22,401 nucleotides of DNA, taken from positions 1 to 22,401 of IMG/VR virus record IMGVR_UViG_3300021085_000243; one strand, given 5' to 3'. Source of the DNA: a virus. Below, one piece after another: positions 6,121 to 22,401 of this stretch (position 1 is the first letter of the stretch; every line of letters starts with the position of its first letter). The translations under genes were made by a program, and so were the position numbers. Below the pieces are notes generated by a model. It was not told where the DNA came from and searched no databases. It saw only the letters and a list, made by a program, of their open reading frames with translations.

Positions 6121-6530
6121 TGGCATTTGAAGTAAAGAAAATAAACCCAATAGATCGTCAGCCAAGAAAAGCAGTTGGAATAGAACTACCTTTCTCAGCT
6201 AAATCTGTCTTTACTTCTAACTACCAAACTAAAGACTCTATAAAGAATAACTTAATTAACTTCTTCCTTACTAATAAAGGAGAAAGATATATGAACCCAA
6301 CGTTCGGTTCTACACTTAGAGAAAAGTTATTCGAAAATATCAATAACGATTTGCAAACTGAGATAGAGGGATTAGTAGACTTTGCTTTAGAAACCTACTT
6401 CCCAAATGTACAACCTATTAACATGCAAGTTATACCTGATACTGATAACAATCTAATTCAGTTCTATTTATCATATGAGATCGTTAATACAAATATTAAA
6501 GATGAGCTGTTAATTAATATAGAGCAATAA
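6120..6530 (+). CDS. gp25-like baseplate wedge subunit
   Basis: At 136 residues this matches the length of the T4 gp25 / gpW-lysozyme-like family of wedge proteins found in all contractile injection systems. The key motif is seen: a helix ending in NNLINFFLTNKGERYMNPTFGSTLREKLFE at residues about 41-70, where the family has L-x-T-x-x-G-E-R and FG-x-x-L. The C-terminal beta strands (NLIQFYLSYEI) also fit. In T4, gp25 joins gp6 and gp53 in the wedge core and helps initiate sheath polymerisation. Here gp6 starts at the stop codon (TAATG, one base shared), the same adjacency as in many myophages, which reinforces the call. Confidence 0.92.
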   Translation: MAFEVKKINPIDRQPRKAVGIELPFSAKSVFTSNYQTKDSIKNNLINFFLTNKGERYMNPTFGSTLREKLFENINNDLQTEIEGLVDFALETYFPNVQPINMQVIPDTDNNLIQFYLSYEIVNTNIKDELLINIEQ

Positions 6531-8341
6531 TGGCAGAAACTAGAGACATAAGATACATTAATAGAAATTTCGATGACTTTAAGTCACAGTTAGTTGAATA
6601 TGCAAAAGCATATTTTCCTGATTCTTATAACGACTTTGGTCCTTCCTCTCCTGGAATGATGTTTATCGAAATGGCATCTTATGTAGGAGATGTTCTATCT
6701 TTTTACCAAGATAATCAATTACAGGAAACATTCTTACAACACGCTAAAAACCCTGCTAATTTATATGCCTTAGCATATATGATGGGATATAAGCCTAAAG
6801 TTACTACAGTAGCAGAAGCAGAACTAGAAGTAACCCAACTTGTAGATGCCATTGGGTCAGAATATAAACCAGACTTTAACCAGGCTATTACAGTTACTGA
6901 GAACAGTACTATAAAATCAACTGCTCAAGGTAATCAGGTATTTCTACTTCAAGATAAGGTAGATTTTAACTTTTCAAGTTCTTATGATCCAACTGAAATA
7001 ACAGTTGCATCTCTTACTAATAATGAACCTTCTGAATTTTTACTGAAGAAAAAAGCTAAAGCATTCTCCGGTAAAATAAAAACAAAAAAAGAAACTTATA
7101 CAACTTCTAATAAATTCGCTACTCTAAATATATCAGACTCAAATATTATAGGTGTTTTAGATATAGTAGATAGCGATGGTAATATATGGTACGAAGTTCC
7201 ATTCTTAGGACAAGATACTATATTTGCACCAGAAACTAATACAGGTATAGAAAAATCGCAAGCCCCTAATTTACTTAAATTAAAAAAAGTCACTAGGAGA
7301 TTTGTAACTAGGTTTACATCTACAGGGGTTCTTCAAATACAATTTGGAGCTGGAATAAGCACTGAAGATGACAATGAATTTTTACCTGATCCAACTTCTA
7401 TAGGATACGGAACTAGACAAGGTACTAATCGTTTAGACTTTGCATATGATCCTTCTAACTTCTTATTCTCTAAGTCATATGGGCTAGCTCCTTCTAATAC
7501 AGAATTAACAGTTCGATATATAGTAGGTGGAGGTATAGAAGCAAATGCACCAGCAAATAGTATTACTTCTATAGACGCAATTACAACAACAGCTAATGAT
7601 TCTTCAAAAGTAGCGTCTCTAACGTTCAATAATCCCTCTCCTGCATTAGGCGGTAGAGATGGAGATTCAGTACAGGAGATTAGAGAGAACTCATTGAGAT
7701 CCTTTGCTGAACAACAGAGAACGGTTACACTTCAAGACTATACTGTACGTTCGTTATCCCTTCCTCCTATGTTTGGAAGTATAGCTAAAGTATACGTAAC
7801 ACAAGATAGTTCTACAAGAAGCACAGAAACGGTATTAAGCGATAATAGACTAGCTTTATCTCTATACGTACTAGCTTATAATAACGAAGGAGCTCTAGTT
7901 CCTGCGAGTAGAACATTAAAAAATAACCTCAAAACATATCTATCTCAGTTTATGATGTTAACAGATGCTGTTGATATAAAAGATGCATTTGTAATTAATA
8001 TTGGGATACAATTCGAAATCGTAGCACTACCAAACTATCAGTCAAGAGATGTGTTACTTAGTTGTACTGAAAAATTAAAAGAGGCTTTAGGACGTGATAA
8101 ACTGACTATTAATCAACCAATTAATCTATCTAATCTTTATACAACATTAGACAGAGTAAAAGGAGTACAAACAGTTAAAAATGTAAGTATTGTAAATAAA
8201 GCAGGCAAAAAATACTCTCAATTTGGATACGACATAACAGGAGCAACAAAAGATAATATAGTTTACCCTTCTTTTGACCCTTGTTGTTTTGAAGTAAAAT
8301 ATCCTAATCAAGATATTGAAGGGAGAGTAACAACATTATAA
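6530..8341 (+). CDS. gp6-like baseplate wedge protein
   Basis: At 603 residues this is near T4 gp6 (660). The N-terminal region (residues 5-95) carries the family signature: RDIRYINRNFDDFKSQLVEYAKAYFPD, DFGPSSPGMMFIEMASYVGDVLSFYQDNQLQETFL, and LAYMMGYKP. The C-terminal half contains the gpJ-like core with GGRDGDSVQEIRENSLRSFAEQQRTVTLQDY at about 364-395 and the final domain ending near VKNVSIVNKAG. gp6 dimers form the continuous ring of the baseplate that reorganises on contraction. The gene follows gp25 with a one-base overlap and is followed one base later by the next ATG, so the wedge genes are one translational unit. Confidence 0.93.
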   Translation: MAETRDIRYINRNFDDFKSQLVEYAKAYFPDSYNDFGPSSPGMMFIEMASYVGDVLSFYQDNQLQETFLQHAKNPANLYALAYMMGYKPKVTTVAEAELEVTQLVDAIGSEYKPDFNQAITVTENSTIKSTAQGNQVFLLQDKVDFNFSSSYDPTEITVASLTNNEPSEFLLKKKAKAFSGKIKTKKETYTTSNKFATLNISDSNIIGVLDIVDSDGNIWYEVPFLGQDTIFAPETNTGIEKSQAPNLLKLKKVTRRFVTRFTSTGVLQIQFGAGISTEDDNEFLPDPTSIGYGTRQGTNRLDFAYDPSNFLFSKSYGLAPSNTELTVRYIVGGGIEANAPANSITSIDAITTTANDSSKVASLTFNNPSPALGGRDGDSVQEIRENSLRSFAEQQRTVTLQDYTVRSLSLPPMFGSIAKVYVTQDSSTRSTETVLSDNRLALSLYVLAYNNEGALVPASRTLKNNLKTYLSQFMMLTDAVDIKDAFVINIGIQFEIVALPNYQSRDVLLSCTEKLKEALGRDKLTINQPINLSNLYTTLDRVKGVQTVKNVSIVNKAGKKYSQFGYDITGATKDNIVYPSFDPCCFEVKYPNQDIEGRVTTL

Positions 8342-9398: not shown

Positions 9399-9762
9399 AA
9401 ATATACAAATTAAAAAAACGGTTTACCAAAAAGATGATTACGGTAAAGTCATCGATAGAAGCTTTTCTAGCTTCAAAAAACCTGTACCTGATTCTACAGA
9501 AAAGACAGTAGAGCAATTTTTTAAAGATTACGAAGAATTATATTTAGAAATACCTATACAAGGTGATAGTCAATCACATGAGTATCTTTCTCTAAGAAGT
9601 GGAGACTTGATATCAATAAACGATATAGAACAAGACATTCAACCACTATTAGATGAAATAGCCGAATTGAGACAACAGTTACTCGATTCACAAAACGAAA
9701 TATTAGATCAGAGATTAGAGATTGCAAACCTAATAGCAGCAAACACCGGTGGAGAGAGTTAA
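9391..9762 (+). CDS. Small structural protein with C-terminal coiled coil
   Basis: This is a 123-residue protein. The N terminus is basic and beta-like (MGRNIQIKKTVYQKDDYGKV). The centre contains YEELYLEIPIQGDSQSHEYLSLRSGDLISIND. Residues about 83-118 make a heptad-like coiled coil (IQPLLDEIAELRQQLLDSQNEILDQRLEIANLI) suited to trimerisation or docking. It overlaps the preceding gene by 8 bases and the following GTG-started gene by 14 bases. It probably binds one of its neighbours in the baseplate. No named family recognised. Confidence 0.6.
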   Translation: MGRNIQIKKTVYQKDDYGKVIDRSFSSFKKPVPDSTEKTVEQFFKDYEELYLEIPIQGDSQSHEYLSLRSGDLISINDIEQDIQPLLDEIAELRQQLLDSQNEILDQRLEIANLIAANTGGES

Positions 9763-11254
9763 TTACATAGTAAAAAAAGCCGATATTGGTAATACATCCC
9801 TTGAAGAAAAGGATGCGATCCTTGTTGGACCTTTCTCAATTAATAATACTTTTGACTCCTCTAAAGATTTTATTGACCTTCATATATACTCAAACGAAGG
9901 AAAACTTTTAAAATCACAACTTAACTATAAAAGTAGTACTCAATCTACATTATCAGCCGGGGCTGGTAAAGAAGGAGCATCTAACTTAATTATAGAGCCA
10001 TATAAAGATGCTATTGCTAATGGCTTTTCGAACGGAGATATAAGAGTACATTATAACTTCTTTACAGATCTACTACACTTAAGAAAAACACCTCCTAGAT
10101 TCTTTATAGAAAAAATATCAGGAGATAGAACAGAAATACAGTTACTTACATTAGAGCTCACAGATGATGAAGTTATTCAATCTGTAGCTGAAGTAAGAGC
10201 TAAATTAGAAAATCAATCTTATTTTTCTGAGTTTAAAGTTTCATTTGGTAAAAATGAAATTAGTACAGGAATTAATATAGATGTAGTAGAGTATAAAGAC
10301 GGCCAGTCTATTATTGTAAAGCTACTTAACCCTCTTCCTTCTAAATTTACAAAGAAAGATATATGTCACCTATTAGAAATAGTAGCAGACAGCTCAGCAT
10401 TTGATATTGAATTAAAAGAAGTTCAAGAAGAAATCACAGTTCCTTTTATTAAAGGACCAAACTTTGATGCTACTTTAGATAAAGAAATAAGTAACCCTAC
10501 TGAGTTCTTCAATTTCGATGAACTCTTTAGTTATCCAGTAACAGGGTCTTATTATCAACTTTATTCTCTATTCAATGAGAAAGGTGCACAAATTAGTATA
10601 GACCATTCTGACTATGGAGACTTTATACATTTTTCATCTGCAGAAGAAAGACTAAGAAACTTTAAGTATAAGTTAGATCTTATAGATAACTACGAAGAAA
10701 ATAGATCAGCAGTTTCTGCGACTAACTATACTAAATTAGGAGCCTCTGGTAGTAAAGGTTATTATGACGGCTTAATTAAAGGTATAGTAGATAATTTTGA
10801 TCATTACGATAGGTACTTATATTATGAAAGCGGTTCTTACTCTTGGCCAAAAACTAACAATCAGCCTCCATACATTAACCAAACAAGCGCAACAGTTGAA
10901 AGTCAAAACTGGTTCGAAACTCAATTAGTTTCAGCCTCTAACTTTGATTTAACTAACTATGACGTTTTAACTAACGCTGTACCTTCTTACTTAAAAGAAG
11001 ACAAAGCTAACGAACCTCTTCTAATGTTTGTGCATATGTTAGCACAGCATTTTGATAACTTATGGATTTACTTTAAAGCGGTATCAAATAAATATGATGC
11101 AGATAATAGGCTAGACTTTGGTATATCTAAAGACTTAGTTAGATCAGCTATAGAAAGCTTTGGTATAAACGTTTATAATAGTAATAAAAATCTAGAAAAC
11201 TTATTTGCATCATTTAACGGTGAAAGCTATACCTCAGTAATACTCAGGAAGTAA
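9749..11254 (+). CDS. Large tail/baseplate protein, N-terminal part (split gene, GTG start)
   Basis: The first codon used is GTG 9749, inside the preceding gene; the opening VNYIVKKADIGNTSLEEKDAILVGPFSINNTFD is continuous and no ATG lies near. The 501 residues are mixed beta/helical, with aromatic-rich stretches (HYDRYLYYESGSYSWPKTNNQPPYINQ) and an end reading VYNSNKNLENLFASFNGESY. In the overlapping frame (minus one), coding-like sequence begins at 11224 and runs without a stop into the next gene (SNTQEVINHYMQITSGSGLEHLQ). From memory of related marine phage proteins, the two halves normally form one long polypeptide with the KEIYKRIYHNIPLL...KGT..GLRALIN block. The break is therefore either a frameshift, a sequencing error or a natural gene split. 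No classical slippery heptamer is visible. Confidence 0.65.
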   Translation: MERVNYIVKKADIGNTSLEEKDAILVGPFSINNTFDSSKDFIDLHIYSNEGKLLKSQLNYKSSTQSTLSAGAGKEGASNLIIEPYKDAIANGFSNGDIRVHYNFFTDLLHLRKTPPRFFIEKISGDRTEIQLLTLELTDDEVIQSVAEVRAKLENQSYFSEFKVSFGKNEISTGINIDVVEYKDGQSIIVKLLNPLPSKFTKKDICHLLEIVADSSAFDIELKEVQEEITVPFIKGPNFDATLDKEISNPTEFFNFDELFSYPVTGSYYQLYSLFNEKGAQISIDHSDYGDFIHFSSAEERLRNFKYKLDLIDNYEENRSAVSATNYTKLGASGSKGYYDGLIKGIVDNFDHYDRYLYYESGSYSWPKTNNQPPYINQTSATVESQNWFETQLVSASNFDLTNYDVLTNAVPSYLKEDKANEPLLMFVHMLAQHFDNLWIYFKAVSNKYDADNRLDFGISKDLVRSAIESFGINVYNSNKNLENLFASFNGESYTSVILRK

Positions 11255-11265
11255 TTAATCACTAC

Positions 11266-13383
11266 ATGCAAATTACCTCTGGTAGTGGGTTAGAACACCT
11301 TCAACCTATGCCAGCTGATAACTATCAGAAAGAGATTTACAAGAGGATATACCACAACATACCTCTTCTTACAAAAGCAAAAGGTACTCATAGAGGTCTT
11401 AGAGCACTTATAAACTGTTTCGGTATACCAGACAATTTGCTTACTATCAAGCAATTTGGAGGTACAGCGATAGACGGTAATAGACATTTTTCTACCCAAC
11501 AAGGAGTGACAAGCTCTTTAGATAAAGTAAGATTAGATAACTCAGGTAGTTTAGTGTCCGGTAGTACACTGTCACTATATACTTCTGTAGTAGATAGAGT
11601 ATATAAGTATTCTGATGACCAGCATACAGTAGAGGTAGGATTTGATATCTCAGATACTACTAACGACCTTATTCAGGCTAGAGTAAGTGGAAGCTTTGAC
11701 TATGATAACTATATTGGTGATCCTAGAGATGCACACTCAACTAATTATCACATACTTGATGAATTAGCAGAAAAAATATTTACCGATGAACAAGAAGGAA
11801 GTATTTACAACTACTGGAACGGAGTTCAAAAGCTTTGGCAAAATGCAGATTGGGATTGGAATGCAACTCCTTTTGAAGCATTTAGACAGACAGGTGACTT
11901 TATAAGGTTAATTAAATTCTTTGACAACTCTATTTTTAGAACAATTAAAGACTTTATTCCTGCTCGTTCTAATGTTAATACAGGGGTTATAATTAAACCT
12001 CATATTCTTAATAGAAGTAAAATAAAACAGGTAAAGGTTACCTATGATCATGAAATACACACAGGCAGTATAACCGTTGACCCTATCACAGGATCTCACG
12101 GAGGCACTTGGGATATGACTCCTTTAACTCCGTACACTACTAATTATTCTGCTAGTATTATTTCTCCATTAGGATTTGTTCCTAGACATGTAGAAGATGA
12201 ATCACCAAAATATACTGGTGAATTTAGCGGGTCATTATTAATTGCCTCAGACGGAGAATTAAACGCAGGTAACCCCTTTAAATCTCAAGCACAACCAATT
12301 GCTCAATTTTCATTAAGAGCATTTAACTTCTCATTACCTATTCCACTTGCTTGTGATGTGATATTAAATATTACTAAGGTAGGAGAGTTTTATAGGTTTA
12401 GCCCTGTAGGTCCTGGACTTGTAGGTATAACATACCCAACAACAGTCCCAAATAGTAGTTTAACTATTAGCAGCTCAGTAGATTATGATTTATATCAATT
12501 CTTAACTGCTACAGCTACTCCTACATATCCATATTATTTTGAAGGATGGTACGACGGAAATAACGAACTGACTGATAACCTAATACAGACTTCCTCTGTA
12601 CTAACTATATACGAAAATACTAACAGCACAATAGATCATTATTTTGCTCATTTTAGCACAGAAGCAGCAAACAGAGTAGTATATACATTTACAACTAACT
12701 ATCCTGATGGAACTGCAGATGGTACTATGAGAGAAGGAGTTTATGGGCTATTTGACTCTGTTCAATTAAATTACCCTGAAACTATTCCTTCAACTGGAAG
12801 TTACCAATATACTCAAAACTGGAACCTCTATAGCTCAATGGCTGCTGAGGCAGTAGATGGATACAATACATATCCTTTTTTAGGGTGGTATAACTCCGCT
12901 AACAACCTACTTACTACAAGTAGCTTAATAACTATTACCTCTGGTTCATTTGGTAATGCCACAGCATTTTACGCTAGATATACACCAGCTAAACATTATT
13001 TCACTTTCAGAAACTGGTTTAGAGTTACTAGTGATGGTAACAGTATATCAGATGACGGAACTTATCAACTATTCCAAAAACGTAATGCTGAACAACAAAT
13101 TACTCAAACAGCTGATCACGTGGTCAATAGCTACTTCTTAGCTGAAGAGTATAGAGCAACAAATAATTATTACAAATCCGTATACTATATTGATGTAGAG
13201 ATAGATGGAACTCTAGGAACAGGTTATACTTATAACTTTACGTTCCCTGAGAATACAAATCCTGATTATCATAGAGCGGTTAATTTTTATACTAACATAC
13301 TAGATACATATTTATATGAAAGAAACCTAGATGGTTACCATCATAGTACCAACATAACAGGTACTTTGCCGGCTACTATCTAA
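11266..13383 (+). CDS. Large tail/baseplate protein, C-terminal part, interrupted by group I intron
   Basis: The N-terminal part (20-75) holds the strongest motif, KEIYKRIYHNIPLLTKAKGTHRGLRALINCFGIP followed by IKQFGG. It resembles tail proteins of the gpI/P2-type baseplate group and recurs in marine phage structural proteins. Residues about 360-470 and 470-575 look like two InlB-type B-repeats, each with a (F/Y)-x-GWY core (YYFEGWYDGNNELTD; YPFLGWYNSANNLLTT), suggesting adhesion modules. The unspliced frame stops at TAA 13381, followed at once by two more in-frame TAA codons. These stops lie at the 5' edge of a group I intron. Splicing probably continues the frame into exon II (about 13622-13703), extending the protein by about 27 residues. 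The upstream half is the previous gene; ATG 11266 may be a true start or only an internal Met. Confidence 0.7.
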   Translation: MQITSGSGLEHLQPMPADNYQKEIYKRIYHNIPLLTKAKGTHRGLRALINCFGIPDNLLTIKQFGGTAIDGNRHFSTQQGVTSSLDKVRLDNSGSLVSGSTLSLYTSVVDRVYKYSDDQHTVEVGFDISDTTNDLIQARVSGSFDYDNYIGDPRDAHSTNYHILDELAEKIFTDEQEGSIYNYWNGVQKLWQNADWDWNATPFEAFRQTGDFIRLIKFFDNSIFRTIKDFIPARSNVNTGVIIKPHILNRSKIKQVKVTYDHEIHTGSITVDPITGSHGGTWDMTPLTPYTTNYSASIISPLGFVPRHVEDESPKYTGEFSGSLLIASDGELNAGNPFKSQAQPIAQFSLRAFNFSLPIPLACDVILNITKVGEFYRFSPVGPGLVGITYPTTVPNSSLTISSSVDYDLYQFLTATATPTYPYYFEGWYDGNNELTDNLIQTSSVLTIYENTNSTIDHYFAHFSTEAANRVVYTFTTNYPDGTADGTMREGVYGLFDSVQLNYPETIPSTGSYQYTQNWNLYSSMAAEAVDGYNTYPFLGWYNSANNLLTTSSLITITSGSFGNATAFYARYTPAKHYFTFRNWFRVTSDGNSISDDGTYQLFQKRNAEQQITQTADHVVNSYFLAEEYRATNNYYKSVYYIDVEIDGTLGTGYTYNFTFPENTNPDYHRAVNFYTNILDTYLYERNLDGYHHSTNITGTLPATI

Positions 13384-13621
13384 TAATAAGTCCGATTTAA
13401 ACTGGGTGAATTGCTGGAAACTCTTTAGAGCTTTAACTACCAAAGCGTAACAATGTTAAAGATTAGACAATCAGCAGCCAAGCTACAAGCCATCTTGTAG
13501 AAGGTTCAGAGACTACTGGAGGGAAAATGGGTTCCCTTAATAACCAGAATTAGCGCCCAGCAGGAGTAATCCTGATGATATAGTCCGATCTTCATGGAGA
13601 CATGAAGTTAACATAATGGTG
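13380..13621 (+). ncRNA. Group I self-splicing intron, IA-type, no internal ORF
   Basis: All core helices can be drawn. P3 is CUGGGUG (13402-13408) with CGCCCAG (13554-13560). P4 is UGCUG with CAGCA. The P5-side hairpin is CUUUAAC with GUUAAAG. P6 is GCC with GGU, plus a perfect CUACAAG/CUUGUAG extension. P7 is GACUA (13511-13515) with UAGUC (13581-13585). P7.1 is CUGG/CCAG, P7.2 AGGGAA/UUCCCU, P8 AGGA/UCCU, and P9 CUUCAUG-GAGA-CAUGAAG (13590-13607). P7.1 plus P7.2 points to subgroup IA. The P9 hairpin and the ending AACAUAAUG resemble the T4 td intron as I remember it. Edges are uncertain: 13380-13621 (U before, G at the end) is the pair that restores the frame, but no convincing P1 with the usual U-G pair supports it. 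Weak P1 alternatives place the 5' site after U13374 or U13362, and td similarity would end the intron at G13618 or G13619. Confidence 0.88.
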
Positions 13622-15511: not shown

Positions 15512-16558
15512 ATGTCATTTAAAAGATTCGATCAAGAAGATGTAGTAGTTAGTGCTGAGTCAATCTCAACACCAGTATGGTCAGGTAATAAAACAACTTT
15601 ATCAGGCTTTTATACATCCTCTACTCAAGTAGGTGGAGCCTCTGGAGATTATTACTACAACATTTATCAAACTGGCTCTGCTCTAGAAGATGCCAGAGTA
15701 CAATTTTCTCTAGCGTACGGCCATAAAAAAGGAAGCGGTAGTATATACTTTAACCCAACTGTACCAGGAAAGACTCCTTCTTCAACAATATACGGACAGT
15801 ATAGATCTTTAATTTTAGGTGATGAAGATTCAGAATTCTTATTCGGTGGAGTAGCTTCTGAACACTTCTATGCACTTTCTATTAACAGAGCTAGATTCAA
15901 AGAAAAGCTTTTACCAGGAACAGTATCTATTACTTTAGAACATTCAGCAAGTAATGGAAAATCATACAGTAGAACATTAACTGATGATAGTAAAGTTGCT
16001 TCAACAGTTACTTTTACTGATGCAGGTAGAGTATATGAATTAGTTTCCGGTTCACTAGGAAGTATCTATACAGGTTTAAACAGTAATGGATTTACTTCTA
16101 ATCATGGTTCATACGGAAAAGTATTACCAGATATCGGAGTAATATTACTTAACACAAACGCTCTTAACTCTGCACCAATTAGTGGAGGAGTAAGATTCGA
16201 AGCAAATGAATTACCTAACACAGTAACTTACTCTGGAAGTAAAAATAACTTACAACAAGGATTTGATCTGTTTCAAAGAGGAGGAGGATTTAGAGTACAG
16301 TCTGAAGAGACAATTGCGTCTAACTTTGTATTCGTTAGAGCAAGAAACTCAGAATTTAATTACTCTAGTAACCCTTCATTAATTACAGGTTCTGGAGAAT
16401 TGAGACATGATGTTCTTATTAACTCTCCTCAATCGTATATTACTTCAGTAGGATTATATAACGATAATAATGACCTCCTTGCTATCGCTAAGCTATCTAG
16501 ACCATTGTTGAAAGACTTTACGAAAGAAGCTCTAGTGAGAGTTAAGCTTGACTATTAA
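15512..16558 (+). CDS. Virion structural protein, paralogous C-terminal domain (copy 1)
   Basis: This is a 348-residue protein. The N-terminal part (MSFKRFDQEDVVVSAESISTPVWSGN; STIYGQYRSLILGDEDSEFLFGG; ALSINRARFKEKLLPGTVSITLEHS) looks like a conserved phage virion fold of unknown role. The last about 75 residues (FVRARNSEFNYSSNP...SYITSVGLYNDNNDLLAIAKLSRPL) match the end of the next gene in sequence order and spacing, so the two share a C-terminal domain. The start lies two bases after the preceding stop. No catalytic motif is seen. These two adjacent proteins may form a heteromeric layer of the baseplate or fibre base. Confidence 0.68.
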   Translation: MSFKRFDQEDVVVSAESISTPVWSGNKTTLSGFYTSSTQVGGASGDYYYNIYQTGSALEDARVQFSLAYGHKKGSGSIYFNPTVPGKTPSSTIYGQYRSLILGDEDSEFLFGGVASEHFYALSINRARFKEKLLPGTVSITLEHSASNGKSYSRTLTDDSKVASTVTFTDAGRVYELVSGSLGSIYTGLNSNGFTSNHGSYGKVLPDIGVILLNTNALNSAPISGGVRFEANELPNTVTYSGSKNNLQQGFDLFQRGGGFRVQSEETIASNFVFVRARNSEFNYSSNPSLITGSGELRHDVLINSPQSYITSVGLYNDNNDLLAIAKLSRPLLKDFTKEALVRVKLDY

Positions 16559-16561
16559 TGA

Positions 16562-17584
16562 ATGAGTACTTACAAAAAACTGAACCGCCAAGACGTATAC
16601 GTAACTGACTACTCTGCCCGTAAGCAGTGGGAGGCAAGCGGCAGTTTATTGTCCTCTTACAATATTGAAACCCTTAGAGGTTTTTCTGGATCAACACCGG
16701 GTTATTCTTACCCTGCTGATTTTAGAAATGATAGATATGAAAAATTAGTTTACGATAGTATTAAGCATAACTTTTATGCTGACGGTATAGGGAATGGGTT
16801 GTATAGCGGTTCAAGAGACTTATCACTACAATCTACCTTAACATTAAGCGGTTCAAGAGATATAAAATCAGAGGTAGGAGTAATATCGTTACCTAAAGGA
16901 GTTTTTGGAACACATATAGTCCCTAATACATTTGTATTTAGACCAAAATTCGAAGAAACAGTTGACGAGTACGTATTAGACGGATATGCGATAGATAGAA
17001 TCTCAGGCGAAAATGCATACATACATAATAATGAGTATTGGTATAAGTCTAATCCTATCGACTCTAAGGACTATGTATTAGCAGAAAATGATTTTGTAGA
17101 CGAATCAACATCAGAATATACAGAAATAAATTTAAACCAACAGAGAATTGAAATCATTGATGACGGAGACGGATCATTAATTTTCTCTGGTTCTGAAACA
17201 GTTTTCACTAGACCAAGACAGGTAGTAGGTGATATAATATATAATCAAGGCTTAGCAGTAATAACTAATCCTGAAGTAGCAAGATACTTGAGTACTTATT
17301 CTAGACATATATTACGATGGAAATCAAATCAACCTATTTATACATATAATGTACACTGTAAGGTACGAGATTCTGAAATGAATTTCACTTATAACTCTTC
17401 AGCTCAATCAGGAACTGAAGGTAAAATTGCCTCAAATGTAAGCAGTAGTTTATTTACTCCTTATATTTCCACAGTTGGACTTTATAATGATGCTAGTGAA
17501 TTGATTGCTGTCGCTAAAACTAACAGACCAATTCAAAAGACTCATAATACAGATATGACTTTTGTAGTAAAAATAGATATATAA
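16562..17584 (+). CDS. Virion structural protein, paralogous C-terminal domain (copy 2)
   Basis: This is a 340-residue protein with a different N-terminal part (MSTYKKLNRQDVYVTDYSARKQWEASG; GLYSGSRDLSLQSTLTLSGSRDIKSEVGVISLPKGVFGTHIVPNTFVF) that is rich in aromatic and Ser residues. The C-terminal about 75 residues (KVRDSEMNFTYNSSAQ...PYISTVGLYNDASELIAVAKTNRPIQK) parallel those of the preceding gene. A middle block DDGDGSLIFSG...VVGDIIYNQGLAVIT is beta-like. It starts three bases after the preceding stop, and its stop overlaps the next start by one base (TAATG). Duplication of a C-terminal module followed by N-terminal divergence is the simplest history. Confidence 0.68.
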   Translation: MSTYKKLNRQDVYVTDYSARKQWEASGSLLSSYNIETLRGFSGSTPGYSYPADFRNDRYEKLVYDSIKHNFYADGIGNGLYSGSRDLSLQSTLTLSGSRDIKSEVGVISLPKGVFGTHIVPNTFVFRPKFEETVDEYVLDGYAIDRISGENAYIHNNEYWYKSNPIDSKDYVLAENDFVDESTSEYTEINLNQQRIEIIDDGDGSLIFSGSETVFTRPRQVVGDIIYNQGLAVITNPEVARYLSTYSRHILRWKSNQPIYTYNVHCKVRDSEMNFTYNSSAQSGTEGKIASNVSSSLFTPYISTVGLYNDASELIAVAKTNRPIQKTHNTDMTFVVKIDI

Positions 17585-18222
17585 TGGCTATAACATTAAG
17601 AGCAAATAAAGGACAAGCATTAAGTTACGGGGAAATGGATATTAACTTCGGTTCATATTTCTATTCCAGTTCTTTGCAAGGTGCTAATCTACACCTTCAC
17701 TACACTAGTAGCTTAAATGTACCTATCAATCAACCTACTCACATTATACCTCTCCGATCAGGACAAGTAGCAGGTACAGATTTTAACATACAGTATAACG
17801 AAGCAGGTAACTTAGAAGGAGCTAGTGATTTTAATTATAGCGGCTCTAAGGTTGGTATTAACAACACGGTAAACGATTTAACATATAACCTTGAGGTATC
17901 AGGAAGTATTAGAGCTTCAGCAGCATTATTATCTAACTCTGATAAAAGGTTAAAAGAAAATATTTATATTATAGATAACGCTCTTTCTAGAGTGAAACAA
18001 TTAGAAGGTGTTTACTTCAATTGGAATGGAAAAGAAGAAAGACAAGTAGGAGTAATAGCACAAGATGTACAAAAAGTTCTTCCGGAAGTTGTTTCTGAAG
18101 ATAAAGATTCGTATCTTGCTGTAGACTACTCTAAGATTGTGCCTCTATTAATAGAAGCAATAAACGAACAGACCAATTTAATCTCCGACTTAGAAGATAA
18201 AATTAGTAAATTAGAAAAATAA
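17584..18222 (+). CDS. Short tail-fibre protein with S74 intramolecular chaperone
   Basis: The N-terminal anchor reads MAITLRANKGQALSYGEMDINFGSYFYSSS and is shared with the next gene. A short Ser/Gly-rich shaft follows. Residues 119 onward are a peptidase S74 (endosialidase-type) chaperone: SDKRLKENI, then ALSRVKQLEGVYFNW, then QVGVIAQDVQKVLPEVV, and YLAVDYSKIVPLLIEAINEQ, ending in a coiled coil (LISDLEDKISKLEK). In known members this domain drives trimer folding of the beta-helical fibre and then cuts itself off just before the conserved Ser, here Ser119. With only about 118 residues before the cut site, the mature fibre would be very short. Confidence 0.88.
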   Translation: MAITLRANKGQALSYGEMDINFGSYFYSSSLQGANLHLHYTSSLNVPINQPTHIIPLRSGQVAGTDFNIQYNEAGNLEGASDFNYSGSKVGINNTVNDLTYNLEVSGSIRASAALLSNSDKRLKENIYIIDNALSRVKQLEGVYFNWNGKEERQVGVIAQDVQKVLPEVVSEDKDSYLAVDYSKIVPLLIEAINEQTNLISDLEDKISKLEK

Positions 18223-18223
18223 G

Positions 18224-20053
18224 ATGGCTATTATATTAAGAGCAGACAAAGGAACACCGTTATCTCATACGGAGCTAGATAATAACTTTAGACAGTTATT
18301 CTATTCTGCTTCTTTTTCTGGTACTCAATTAAGTCTTTTTACTTCAGCTTCTTTAGACAATGAAGTTACAATTCCTTTCTCTACGCCCTACGGTAAAGAG
18401 TATTATGTACAATTCAAAGAAGGAAACGCTACAAGCGGATCAAATTCTTCATTTAGCGGCTCAGCTAACTTTATATACGATTATAGAAAGTTTCATTTAA
18501 AACATACGGGTTCATTTTTTAACATTGGAGATGCAACCATAGATGGTAATTTAACAGTTACCGGAACAGTTACTGCACAAGAAATGAGAACAGAGTTTAA
18601 CAACTCTTCAGTAGTATTTGATTCTGGTTCTACTAAATTTGGGGACACTGCTGATGATACTCATTCATTCACAGGAAGCCTAGAACTAGAAGGAAGTTTA
18701 ACTAGCTCAGCAGATTTATACATAGCAGATTGGGGAAGTGTTTCTGCATCATTAGCTTCTAATTTATATACAGAAAACGAAGCCTCTGCCTCTCAAGCAG
18801 CAGATCATACAGCTCTCTCTCAATCTTTAGCAGCACGTATTCAATCAGGAAGTGATTCAGTACAAGCTACATACTTAAGAAATACAACAGATACTTTAGC
18901 AGGTGACCTAACCGTTACAGGTAGAATTAACGCTACAGAAATTACCACTACCTATGTATCTTCTTCCATATTATATAACTCAGGTTCAAACGTATTTGGA
19001 GATGCAGCAAGTGATATTCATATCTTTACCGGTAGTATTCGATCAGAACATGCTATAACAGGTTCAGATGTAAGAATACAGCAATGGGGTAGTGTTTCTG
19101 CTTCATTAGCTAGTATAAGCACAACAGTTGGAGCTTTATCTACAGAGTATAGCGACCTTCAGAATATACCATCAGGTATAGTCTCCGCTTCAGCATTATT
19201 TGCACCCCCAATTCAAGGTACACTATCTTTATCTACAAACGGAGTAGCACAGACATCGATAGAGATACGAGATCTACAAAACGATTCTACCCCCGCTTTC
19301 GCAGATCTATCTCTTACAGACTTTACTTCTGTATCTGCTTCTTTAGCAGCATTAACTGCAGGTACTATAACCATTAATAATGATGCTAATAATAGAGTAC
19401 TAACTGCTAACGGTAATAGTACTTTAAATGGAGAAGCTAATTTAACTTTCGACGGCGACGTACTAGGAGTTAATGGGACTACATTAGGTCAATTTACAAA
19501 CTCAGATAGTGACATCGTTGGTCTTATTGGAGCAGGTTCTCAATTTGGAACATTAATTCAAGGAGTTGAAAATGGACATATAGTTGTCGGTCTTAGAGAT
19601 AATGACTCTGACGAATCATTTTCAGTAGTAAGTGGAAACAGCGATTATTATGCAGATAGTACTTACGACAAATTAGTATTTAAGGTAACAGGAGGAGGAG
19701 CTACTACGATAGGAGGAAGCTTAACAGTAAGTGGTTCAATAGTATCCACAGGTGATATAACTGCATATCATACTTCAGATGAAAACTTAAAAGATAATAT
19801 CGAGTTGATACAACAACCAATCGATAAGATAAAACAAATAAAGGGAGTATCCTTTGACTGGAATGATAAGTCAGAACATACAGGCCATGATATCGGAGTA
19901 ATAGCACAAGACATAGAAAAAATTCTTCCTGAAATAGTTGCTACCAGAGATAATGGCTTTAAAGCAGTACGTTATGAGAAATTAGTCGCGTTATTAATTG
20001 AAGCGGTCAAAGACCAGCAGTCACAAATAGATGAGCTGAAAGCAAAGCTCTAG
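18224..20053 (+). CDS. Long tail-fibre protein with S74 intramolecular chaperone
   Basis: This is a 609-residue protein. Residues 1-35 (MAIILRADKGTPLSHTELDNNFRQLFYSAS) match the anchor of the preceding gene. The shaft contains repeated units of the form SS-x-x-(F/Y)-x-SGS-x-x-FGD...H-x-FTGS (about 127-150 and 247-270), each followed by WGSVSASLAS, plus SVSASLAAL later, typical of trimeric beta-stranded fibres. Residues about 518-609 are the S74 chaperone: SDENLKDNI, KIKQIKGVSFDWND, IGVIAQDIEKILPEIV, FKAVRYEKLVALLIEAVKDQQ, then a short coiled coil. Predicted self-cleavage before Ser518 would release the chaperone. The shaft before it is the likely receptor-binding region. It starts two bases after the short fibre's stop. 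Confidence 0.9.
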   Translation: MAIILRADKGTPLSHTELDNNFRQLFYSASFSGTQLSLFTSASLDNEVTIPFSTPYGKEYYVQFKEGNATSGSNSSFSGSANFIYDYRKFHLKHTGSFFNIGDATIDGNLTVTGTVTAQEMRTEFNNSSVVFDSGSTKFGDTADDTHSFTGSLELEGSLTSSADLYIADWGSVSASLASNLYTENEASASQAADHTALSQSLAARIQSGSDSVQATYLRNTTDTLAGDLTVTGRINATEITTTYVSSSILYNSGSNVFGDAASDIHIFTGSIRSEHAITGSDVRIQQWGSVSASLASISTTVGALSTEYSDLQNIPSGIVSASALFAPPIQGTLSLSTNGVAQTSIEIRDLQNDSTPAFADLSLTDFTSVSASLAALTAGTITINNDANNRVLTANGNSTLNGEANLTFDGDVLGVNGTTLGQFTNSDSDIVGLIGAGSQFGTLIQGVENGHIVVGLRDNDSDESFSVVSGNSDYYADSTYDKLVFKVTGGGATTIGGSLTVSGSIVSTGDITAYHTSDENLKDNIELIQQPIDKIKQIKGVSFDWNDKSEHTGHDIGVIAQDIEKILPEIVATRDNGFKAVRYEKLVALLIEAVKDQQSQIDELKAKL

Positions 20054-20070
20054 CGACAAAACTTAAACAT

Positions 20071-20562
20071 ATGAACATGCCAACATTACCTACCTGGACT
20101 TTTCAGGGTAGGCTTATAACAGAGATTTCAGATATGCCGAAAGGCACTTATGGTTTCATTTATGAAACTAAACATAAGCCAACCGGCTTGAAGTACATAG
20201 GAAAAAAAGTACTATTCTTTGAGCGCAACAAAAGACTAGGCAAAAAAGCCCTTGAAGCTTTGAGAGAAGAAAGAAAGGCAAAAGGTATAGGAGGAAGAAC
20301 TCCTCTAAAACAAAAGGTAATTACAGAATCAGATTGGAAGGACTATTATGGTTCACATAAAGATATTTTAAAATACGTTAAAGAGTCGAAGGACTTAAGA
20401 AGTGATTTCGAAAAGAGAATACTAGCATTTGTACCTAATAAGAAGCTCTTAACCTATTTTGAATGTAAGTACCTATTTATAAATGAAGTACTAGAACATA
20501 ATGACGTATATATAAACGACAATGTACTAGGAAAATTTTATAGAAAAGATTTTATATTATGA
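20071..20562 (+). CDS. GIY-YIG endonuclease, free-standing
   Basis: This is a 163-residue protein with the GIY-YIG core: YGFIYE at residues 27-32 and KYIGKK at 41-46, then basic residues (FFERNKRLGKK) where the family has its catalytic Arg, and a later acidic helix (LTYFECKYLFINE) that can supply the catalytic Glu. The block ESDWKDYYGSHKDI and the ending NDNVLGKFYRKDF are typical of a phage group of such enzymes. They nick or cut DNA; many are homing endonucleases of the Seg type. It sits after the fibre genes rather than inside the group I intron, so it is free-standing. Its stop overlaps the next start by four bases. Confidence 0.8.
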   Translation: MNMPTLPTWTFQGRLITEISDMPKGTYGFIYETKHKPTGLKYIGKKVLFFERNKRLGKKALEALREERKAKGIGGRTPLKQKVITESDWKDYYGSHKDILKYVKESKDLRSDFEKRILAFVPNKKLLTYFECKYLFINEVLEHNDVYINDNVLGKFYRKDFIL

Positions 20563-21341: not shown

Positions 21342-21630
21342 ACCATATTCTGAAATAAAAGAGAATGGTTATATTATAAGGGAGTTTTCTCAAAATACTT
21401 CCTCATTCGAATTCGTATGGCATAGAGACAAAGAAGATAGGATAGTTGAAGCGATAGGAAAAACAGATTGGAAATTTCAATTAGATAACGAGGTTCCTAA
21501 AGAAATAAATCGTATCTTTATTCCTAAAGAGACTTATCATAGACTTGTAAAAGGAACAGGGAATCTAAAAGTACGAATAAAAGAAGTTACAGATATTGAA
21601 GACATTCATAATAACACTGAGTCAAAATAA
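21313..21630 (+). CDS. Cupin-like small beta protein, GTG start
   Basis: The frame opens at GTG 21313, inside the preceding gene by 29 bases; no ATG is available upstream of the conserved part. The 105 residues are beta-rich: IIREFSQNTSSFEFVWHRDKEDRIVEAIGKTDWKFQLDNEVPKEINRIFIPKETYHRLVKGTGNLKVRIKE. The order WHRD...GKTDWKFQ.D...P...IFIP...YHR..KG...L is what a small cupin would show, with His residues placed where a metal could bind. I infer a cupin-like fold, not an activity. The end overlaps the glycosyltransferase gene by 35 bases. Confidence 0.6.
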   Translation: MDQTSQVTGRPYSEIKENGYIIREFSQNTSSFEFVWHRDKEDRIVEAIGKTDWKFQLDNEVPKEINRIFIPKETYHRLVKGTGNLKVRIKEVTDIEDIHNNTESK

Positions 21631-22401
21631 AGACTCTCTAAAATCAGCTCAACAAACAATTCAATCTGCAAAAGATGTTGGGTACGATGAACCTATAGAG
21701 TTATTTGACGCAGTACTTCCCAACCAATGGAAAGATATTCTACCTGACGATAATAGTCACTTTAGCAGATACGGAAGACCGGATAATGTAGGAGCCTGTT
21801 TTGCATCACACTATTTACTTTGGAAAAAATGTTTAGAATTAGGAGAGCCAATCTTAATTTTAGAGCACGATGCTATATTTGTAGATAATTTACCCGACAT
21901 AGAATTTGATCAATGTGTTAACTTTGGTAGACCAAGTTACATAAGACCGTATGAAATGATTTACGAAGAACCACAAGATGGTCTTCACCCCTTAATACAG
22001 CTAAACTTTTTAGGTCACCATGCTTATGCAATTAAACCTTCAGCAGCAGCTCAGTTTATAAGTGATGCAGAACATAGAGAGTTAACCGCTAATGATGTAT
22101 GGATAGATAAAATTACTTATCCCTGGTTAGAAGAGTATAGACCATACCCTATCATAGCAGATACTAATTTCTCAACAGTACAGACCGACTTACCAGAAGA
22201 TTTACCCCTGATACAGGAATACCTTAAAGTCACAGCTAAAGATAGCCCTAATCGTAGTTATATAGAAAAATGGTTCCCTCAAGTACTAGAAAAACAATCT
22301 AACAGACATATAAAAGCAACTGCTGATGAACTACCAAAAGAGTATGTAGAGCTTTATCCTGGGTATTGGGAGAACGATATTTATGCATGGATAAGAAAAC
22401 C
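21596..22401 (+). CDS. GT25-type glycosyltransferase, 3' end missing, TTG start
   Basis: The frame is open from TTG 21596 to the right edge of the window. The start gives MKTFIITLSQNKDSLKSAQQTIQSAKDVGY, the usual opening of family 25 glycosyltransferases (LPS biosynthesis type). Then comes NVGACFASHYLLWKKCLELGEPILILEHDAIFV at about 64-96. The SHYLLW helix and the EHDA box (residues 90-93, the DxD-like metal and sugar-nucleotide site) support the call. The later part has GHHAYAIKPSAAAQFI and ANDVWID, matching the acceptor-side motifs. Phage glycosyltransferases may modify host surface sugars, virion proteins or DNA; the target is not shown. The start lies in the end of the cupin-like gene. Other upstream starts are blocked by lack of a suitable codon near the conserved opening. 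Confidence 0.8.
   Translation, partial: MKTFIITLSQNKDSLKSAQQTIQSAKDVGYDEPIELFDAVLPNQWKDILPDDNSHFSRYGRPDNVGACFASHYLLWKKCLELGEPILILEHDAIFVDNLPDIEFDQCVNFGRPSYIRPYEMIYEEPQDGLHPLIQLNFLGHHAYAIKPSAAAQFISDAEHRELTANDVWIDKITYPWLEEYRPYPIIADTNFSTVQTDLPEDLPLIQEYLKVTAKDSPNRSYIEKWFPQVLEKQSNRHIKATADELPKEYVELYPGYWENDIYAWIRK

Follow-up and report, generated by a model that had tools for sequence, protein, structure and literature searches.

Reading frames at the join

Does the large gene in the tail region of this linear virus record, all 22,401 bases of which were analyzed here as the window, encode two proteins, one protein obtained through a change of frame, or one protein whose frame has been broken by the lack of a base? 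The upstream part (9749–11254, plus strand) starts with a GTG at 9749, encodes 501 amino acids and ends with the TAA at 11252–11254, and the downstream open frame (11224–13383, plus strand; 719 codons) is preceded by a TGA at 11221–11223. The second frame stands at −1 relative to the first and overlaps it by 31 bases, and the residues SNTQEVINHYMQITSGSGLEHLQ lie in the downstream frame. The initial annotation had proposed a large tail protein split at this place, and the upstream stop, the opening of the downstream frame, the peptide it quoted and the two CTCAG motifs (11233–11237 and 11243–11247, counted by eye) are all as it had described them. In the sequence as written, translation would end at 11252, and the first ATG of the downstream frame (11266–11268, plus strand), 11 bases past that stop, would be a possible re-initiation start if the break were real. 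Relatives match the upstream part to about residue 496, its final five residues being out of frame with them, and the nearest relatives match the downstream frame from its residue 6–9 onward. Because the two halves align to a single continuous protein in relatives, chance is not at issue.

Scans of IMG/VR with each half yielded the best 80 of 184 relatives for the upstream part and nine loci for the downstream part, and the "phages" collection contributed four Flavobacterium phage immuto records, Microcystis phage Mel-JY01 and one uncultured phage. With one locus taken per contig, 82 records were compared (L002–L081, L091 for immuto and L092 for Mel-JY01; the uncultured phage, LR756508, was left out at the join), of which 79 reach the join, since L010, L019 and L075 end before it. 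A single uninterrupted frame crosses the join in 79/79 of these (68 distinct translations), as it does in L106, which was found later via the C-terminal part; the immuto annotation gives the gene as a single CDS of 1,265 amino acids, and L036 has a stop further downstream of the join. The continuity of related proteins, which the initial annotation had stated, is therefore borne out by all 80 examined relatives whose sequence extends to the join, and none of them is divided into two genes with the same boundary, the arrangement that it had set against its own proposal. The collections may omit near-identical records, so siblings that carry the break are possible. A search for copies from the same population, with gapped exact patterns against viral_contigs and genome_contigs, gave 0 matches, and it is uninformative because it failed to return even the record of the window itself.

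The comparison defines a family of long tail-region proteins, 902–1,860 residues in length among 50 distinct complete copies, and neither half of the window's gene matches a Pfam or PHROGs family. The name "tail protein" comes from the gene neighborhood alone. The 603-aa gene at 6530–8341, which lies three genes further upstream, has a match to PHROG 219 (baseplate wedge subunit), and nearby genes in immuto are annotated as baseplate assembly, baseplate wedge and tail fiber; on these grounds a role of the large gene in the baseplate or tail is probable. When 40 relatives were searched against PHROGs (E ≤ 0.01), families matched one or two members each, with one member assigned to "baseplate wedge subunit." The PDB gave no convincing relative by sequence (best E 0.09) and none by fold at E ≤ 0.001 with the AlphaFold model of relative L004, which is weak (mean pLDDT 58.9). 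Nine BFVD entries were obtained at E ≤ 0.001, all of them uncharacterized phage or virus proteins of 756–1,287 amino acids, with TM-scores of 0.20 or less.

The one-base difference and its possible sources

Base-by-base comparison with 20 relatives places the point of break at 11237–11239 (plus strand), within the codon of a conserved glycine. Thirteen of the 20, including the nearest relatives L002–L005, agree with the window in local length except that the window is exactly one base short, and the remaining seven are two codons shorter at the join, in frame; L106 likewise reveals a one-base gap in the window. The missing base falls inside the codon after residue 496, where a protein alignment of 40 relatives has glycine in 39 and a gap in the 40th, Mel-JY01. 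Beyond the break, the window's downstream frame agrees again with the relatives. The CTCAG pair, which had been placed at the point of change by the initial annotation, looks incidental and is not part of this difference, because the window departs from its nearest relatives by a single base instead of a whole repeat unit, and because L002–L005 lack the pair at the join; some others, e.g., L012 and L015, have a single CTCAG there. The same 5-base direct repeat, which spans the break, is what could be said for phase variation, in which slipped-strand mispairing would toggle the gene on and off, but no tandem array lies near 11237 (arrays in the window are found only at 940–1025 and 20452–20491), no long homopolymer exists at the break, and the size of the difference is again not that of a repeat unit. 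We give this explanation practically no weight.

A real gene split would mean that chains of 501 and 705 amino acids, the second re-initiated at Met 11266, are made separately and assembled in the tail. The closeness of this ATG to the upstream stop would suit such a mechanism, as would the variable length of relatives at the break and its loop-like place, given that residues 493–521 of the L004 model are of low confidence and lie between helices 480–490 and 523–536. However, pLDDT is under 50 in 416 of the 1,079 modeled residues, which makes a low-confidence location unremarkable, and the boundary is shared by 0/80 relatives. The nine codons between the break and Met 11266, moreover, still look like those of the nearest relatives when read in the downstream frame, although they are too few to weigh much and differ more from L006 and L012. 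A split of this kind is accordingly very improbable in our estimate, and we think it just as improbable that a real deletion has become fixed in one lineage, the two chains arising because translation terminates and re-initiates over a flexible linker; if that were true, a gene fission would have been observed in its earliest stage.

A programmed −1 ribosomal frameshift between 11224 and 11252 would yield the full-length protein from the sequence as it stands. The direction and the overlap of the frames would permit it, and the RNA that follows has a slightly more favorable fold than its shuffles (z = −1.83, with 11/200 shuffles as good), but no strict X XXY YYZ heptamer begins anywhere within 11215–11251, in accordance with the initial annotation, which had seen none. 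The relatives, with one frame each, need no shift, and the transition is conserved in 0/79 of them; a shift confined to one contig also lacks the conservation that PMC3711429 expects of programmed shifts. Such recoding appears even less probable than a split gene.

Since the relatives are continuous and no slippery heptamer is present, the break is better explained by an error or a recent indel than by a conserved split or a programmed shift, and of the four options that the initial annotation had left standing, recent indel and assembly error fit the findings while gene split and programmed shift do not. We are highly confident that the locus is one tail-region gene of about 1,200 codons that is one base short at 11237–11239, through an error or a very recent deletion private to this record. 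A consensus or assembly error would be the most likely source of the missing base, and a very recent deletion in a phage of the same population would be a less likely but substantial alternative. Sequencing errors are commonest at homopolymers, and that the break site is not a homopolymer counts against error. The break looks private to the contig, but near-identical records may be hidden from the collections, and this we infer, as we do the choice between error and mutation. The break is most likely an ordinary one, and the two ORFs should be annotated as one gene with a record-specific frame break, neither as two tail proteins nor as a case of recoding.

The substitution pattern of the gene is consistent with a recent origin of the break. 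For the window against L002, L003 and L004, dN/dS is 0.075–0.094 in the upstream part (9749–11236) and 0.056–0.064 in the downstream part (11266–13380), and among the intact L002, L003 and L004 it is 0.053–0.11 and 0.055–0.066, respectively; these values are approximate because dS exceeds 1 in every comparison that involves the window's halves and in most comparisons overall. Neither half shows the relaxed selection expected of a long-broken gene, and constraint on both is strong, roughly equal to that on the intact relatives. An assembly chimera was also considered and finds no support, as nucleotide identity to L002, L003, L004 and L006, taken in steps of 150 bases, does not jump where the frame changes.

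No other break was found in the window. When ORFs of at least 60 amino acids from 12 relative stretches were compared with it, the large tail-region gene was the only non-paralogous ORF split over two frames, a result for which paralogous fiber-gene matches were set aside and which may cover the first 4.8 kb only in part. The reverse comparison of 18 window ORFs with 80 relatives, amounting to 747 gene-by-contig pairs over 686 kb, flagged 12 candidate rows, namely four frame changes and eight in-frame stops, five of the rows coming from L036 alone; some of the stops may be natural gene ends. Isolated frame breaks thus form a low-level background in such contigs. One background example of the same kind is a −1 frame change in the L058 homolog of the 603-aa baseplate gene (2740–2749 of that contig). 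The 6.5-kb contig L036 has in-frame stops in homologs of four window genes and a frame change in that of a fifth, which may reflect a poor contig, a decaying genome or natural ends.

A C-terminal domain and a group I ribozyme core

Comparison of the gene also exposed the pairing of a C-terminal domain with a group I ribozyme that recurs on different tail genes. The C-terminal domain of the large tail gene (12988–13380, plus strand) is absent from several relatives, e.g., L004, L006 and L012, and a group I intron (ribozyme) core overlaps the 3′ end of the gene and continues past it (13304–13607, plus strand), with an Rfam RF00028 score of 89.6 bits against a gathering score of 50. Rfam also detects a core after the same gene in L002, L093, L095 and L119, the domain being common to the window and the relatives that bear the element, and detects none in L094, L100 and L097, which hold the gene end without the domain. 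An exact 27-base piece of the core is found in 14 viral contigs, after the large tail gene in four and after another gene in 10 (L107–L112, L114, L115, L117 and L118); chosen by the core, these contigs cannot show how often the domain lacks it. Of the 10, which include near-identical contigs, nine have an upstream ORF homologous to 16562–17584 of the window with an added C-terminal part, and L114 is cut by the contig end such that only the added part is visible. In a 10-sequence comparison, the domain of the window matches the added parts of L111 (E about 1e-18), L117 (3e-6) and L110 (2e-5), with weak matches to L114 and the L107–L109 group (0.004 to 0.07), and the added parts match one another too. 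The window's own copy of the second gene is without the added part. Among loci chosen by the domain, the core is present in 4/4, all four being the large tail gene and also found by the core. Gene ends with and without the element were compared, and no copy that has the domain but lacks the core, from which the exon ends could be fixed, was found.

A core-like sequence with 84% identity over 140 bases also exists in immuto (NC_055915.1, 145086–145372; L121, 2988–3274), partly annotated as gp045 and with no Rfam match at threshold. It follows a stand-alone 136-aa gene, gp046, the end of which shows weak similarity to the domain (E 0.003 in another 10-sequence comparison). An attractive reading of these sequence comparisons is that the domain may travel with the ribozyme to the ends of different tail genes, with putative splicing and mobility. 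Neither the window's copy of the domain nor that of L107 has a Pfam match, the L111 copy as query found no match in "phages," and the model of the window's domain (mean pLDDT 73.8) found no PDB fold at E ≤ 0.001; its best VIA match (Z 4.0, rmsd 4.4 over 87 residues) is not read as kinship. Searches for further copies of the domain gave only contigs already seen. No such pairing of a domain with a group I ribozyme was named in the literature searched, and we make no claim that it is unpublished.

Other features of the window were noted in passing. The neighboring tail genes at 15512–16558 and 16562–17584 have in common a C-terminal stretch of about 90 residues with about 35–38% identity, as seen via L093 and L094. 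The 212-aa gene at 17584–18222 resembles the first about 80 and the last about 120 residues of relatives of the next gene, a 609-aa S74 fiber gene (18224–20053), and is a short paralog without the middle. A SegE-like GIY-YIG endonuclease gene (20071–20562; Pfam PF19835) lies in the tail region and a glycosyltransferase family 25 gene (21596–22399; PF01755) downstream of the tail genes, and the repeat at 940–1025 is AT-rich, degenerate and situated between an ORF ending at 900 and one starting at 1040.

Comparison with known systems

Programmed −1 frameshifting of the lambda G/GT type is known in phage tail assembly genes. The window resembles that system in its tail module and in the −1 direction, but differs in that it has no slippery heptamer, the transition is not conserved, the gene is a different one, and the break lies inside a long protein. 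A likeness is also found in the singleton frame breaks of prokaryotic genes in PMC3711429, where isolated frame breaks validated by homologs are expected to be sequencing errors and not genuine indels. Two features of a singleton in that scheme, continuous homologs and a break not conserved in relatives, are found here: the homologs validate the broken frame, and no examined relative shares the site. The survey described there, however, deals with complete prokaryotic genomes, whereas the present case is an uncultured virus contig. The closest counterpart in a cultured phage is gp109 of Flavobacterium phage vB_FspM_immuto_2-6A (NC_055915.1, YP_010114574.1), a hypothetical protein of 1,265 amino acids that shows 45% identity over 95% of the upstream part and 40% over 51% of the downstream part. 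Its gene occupies the same place in the gene order, two genes separating it from the baseplate wedge gene, but it differs from that of the window in being a single uninterrupted gene.
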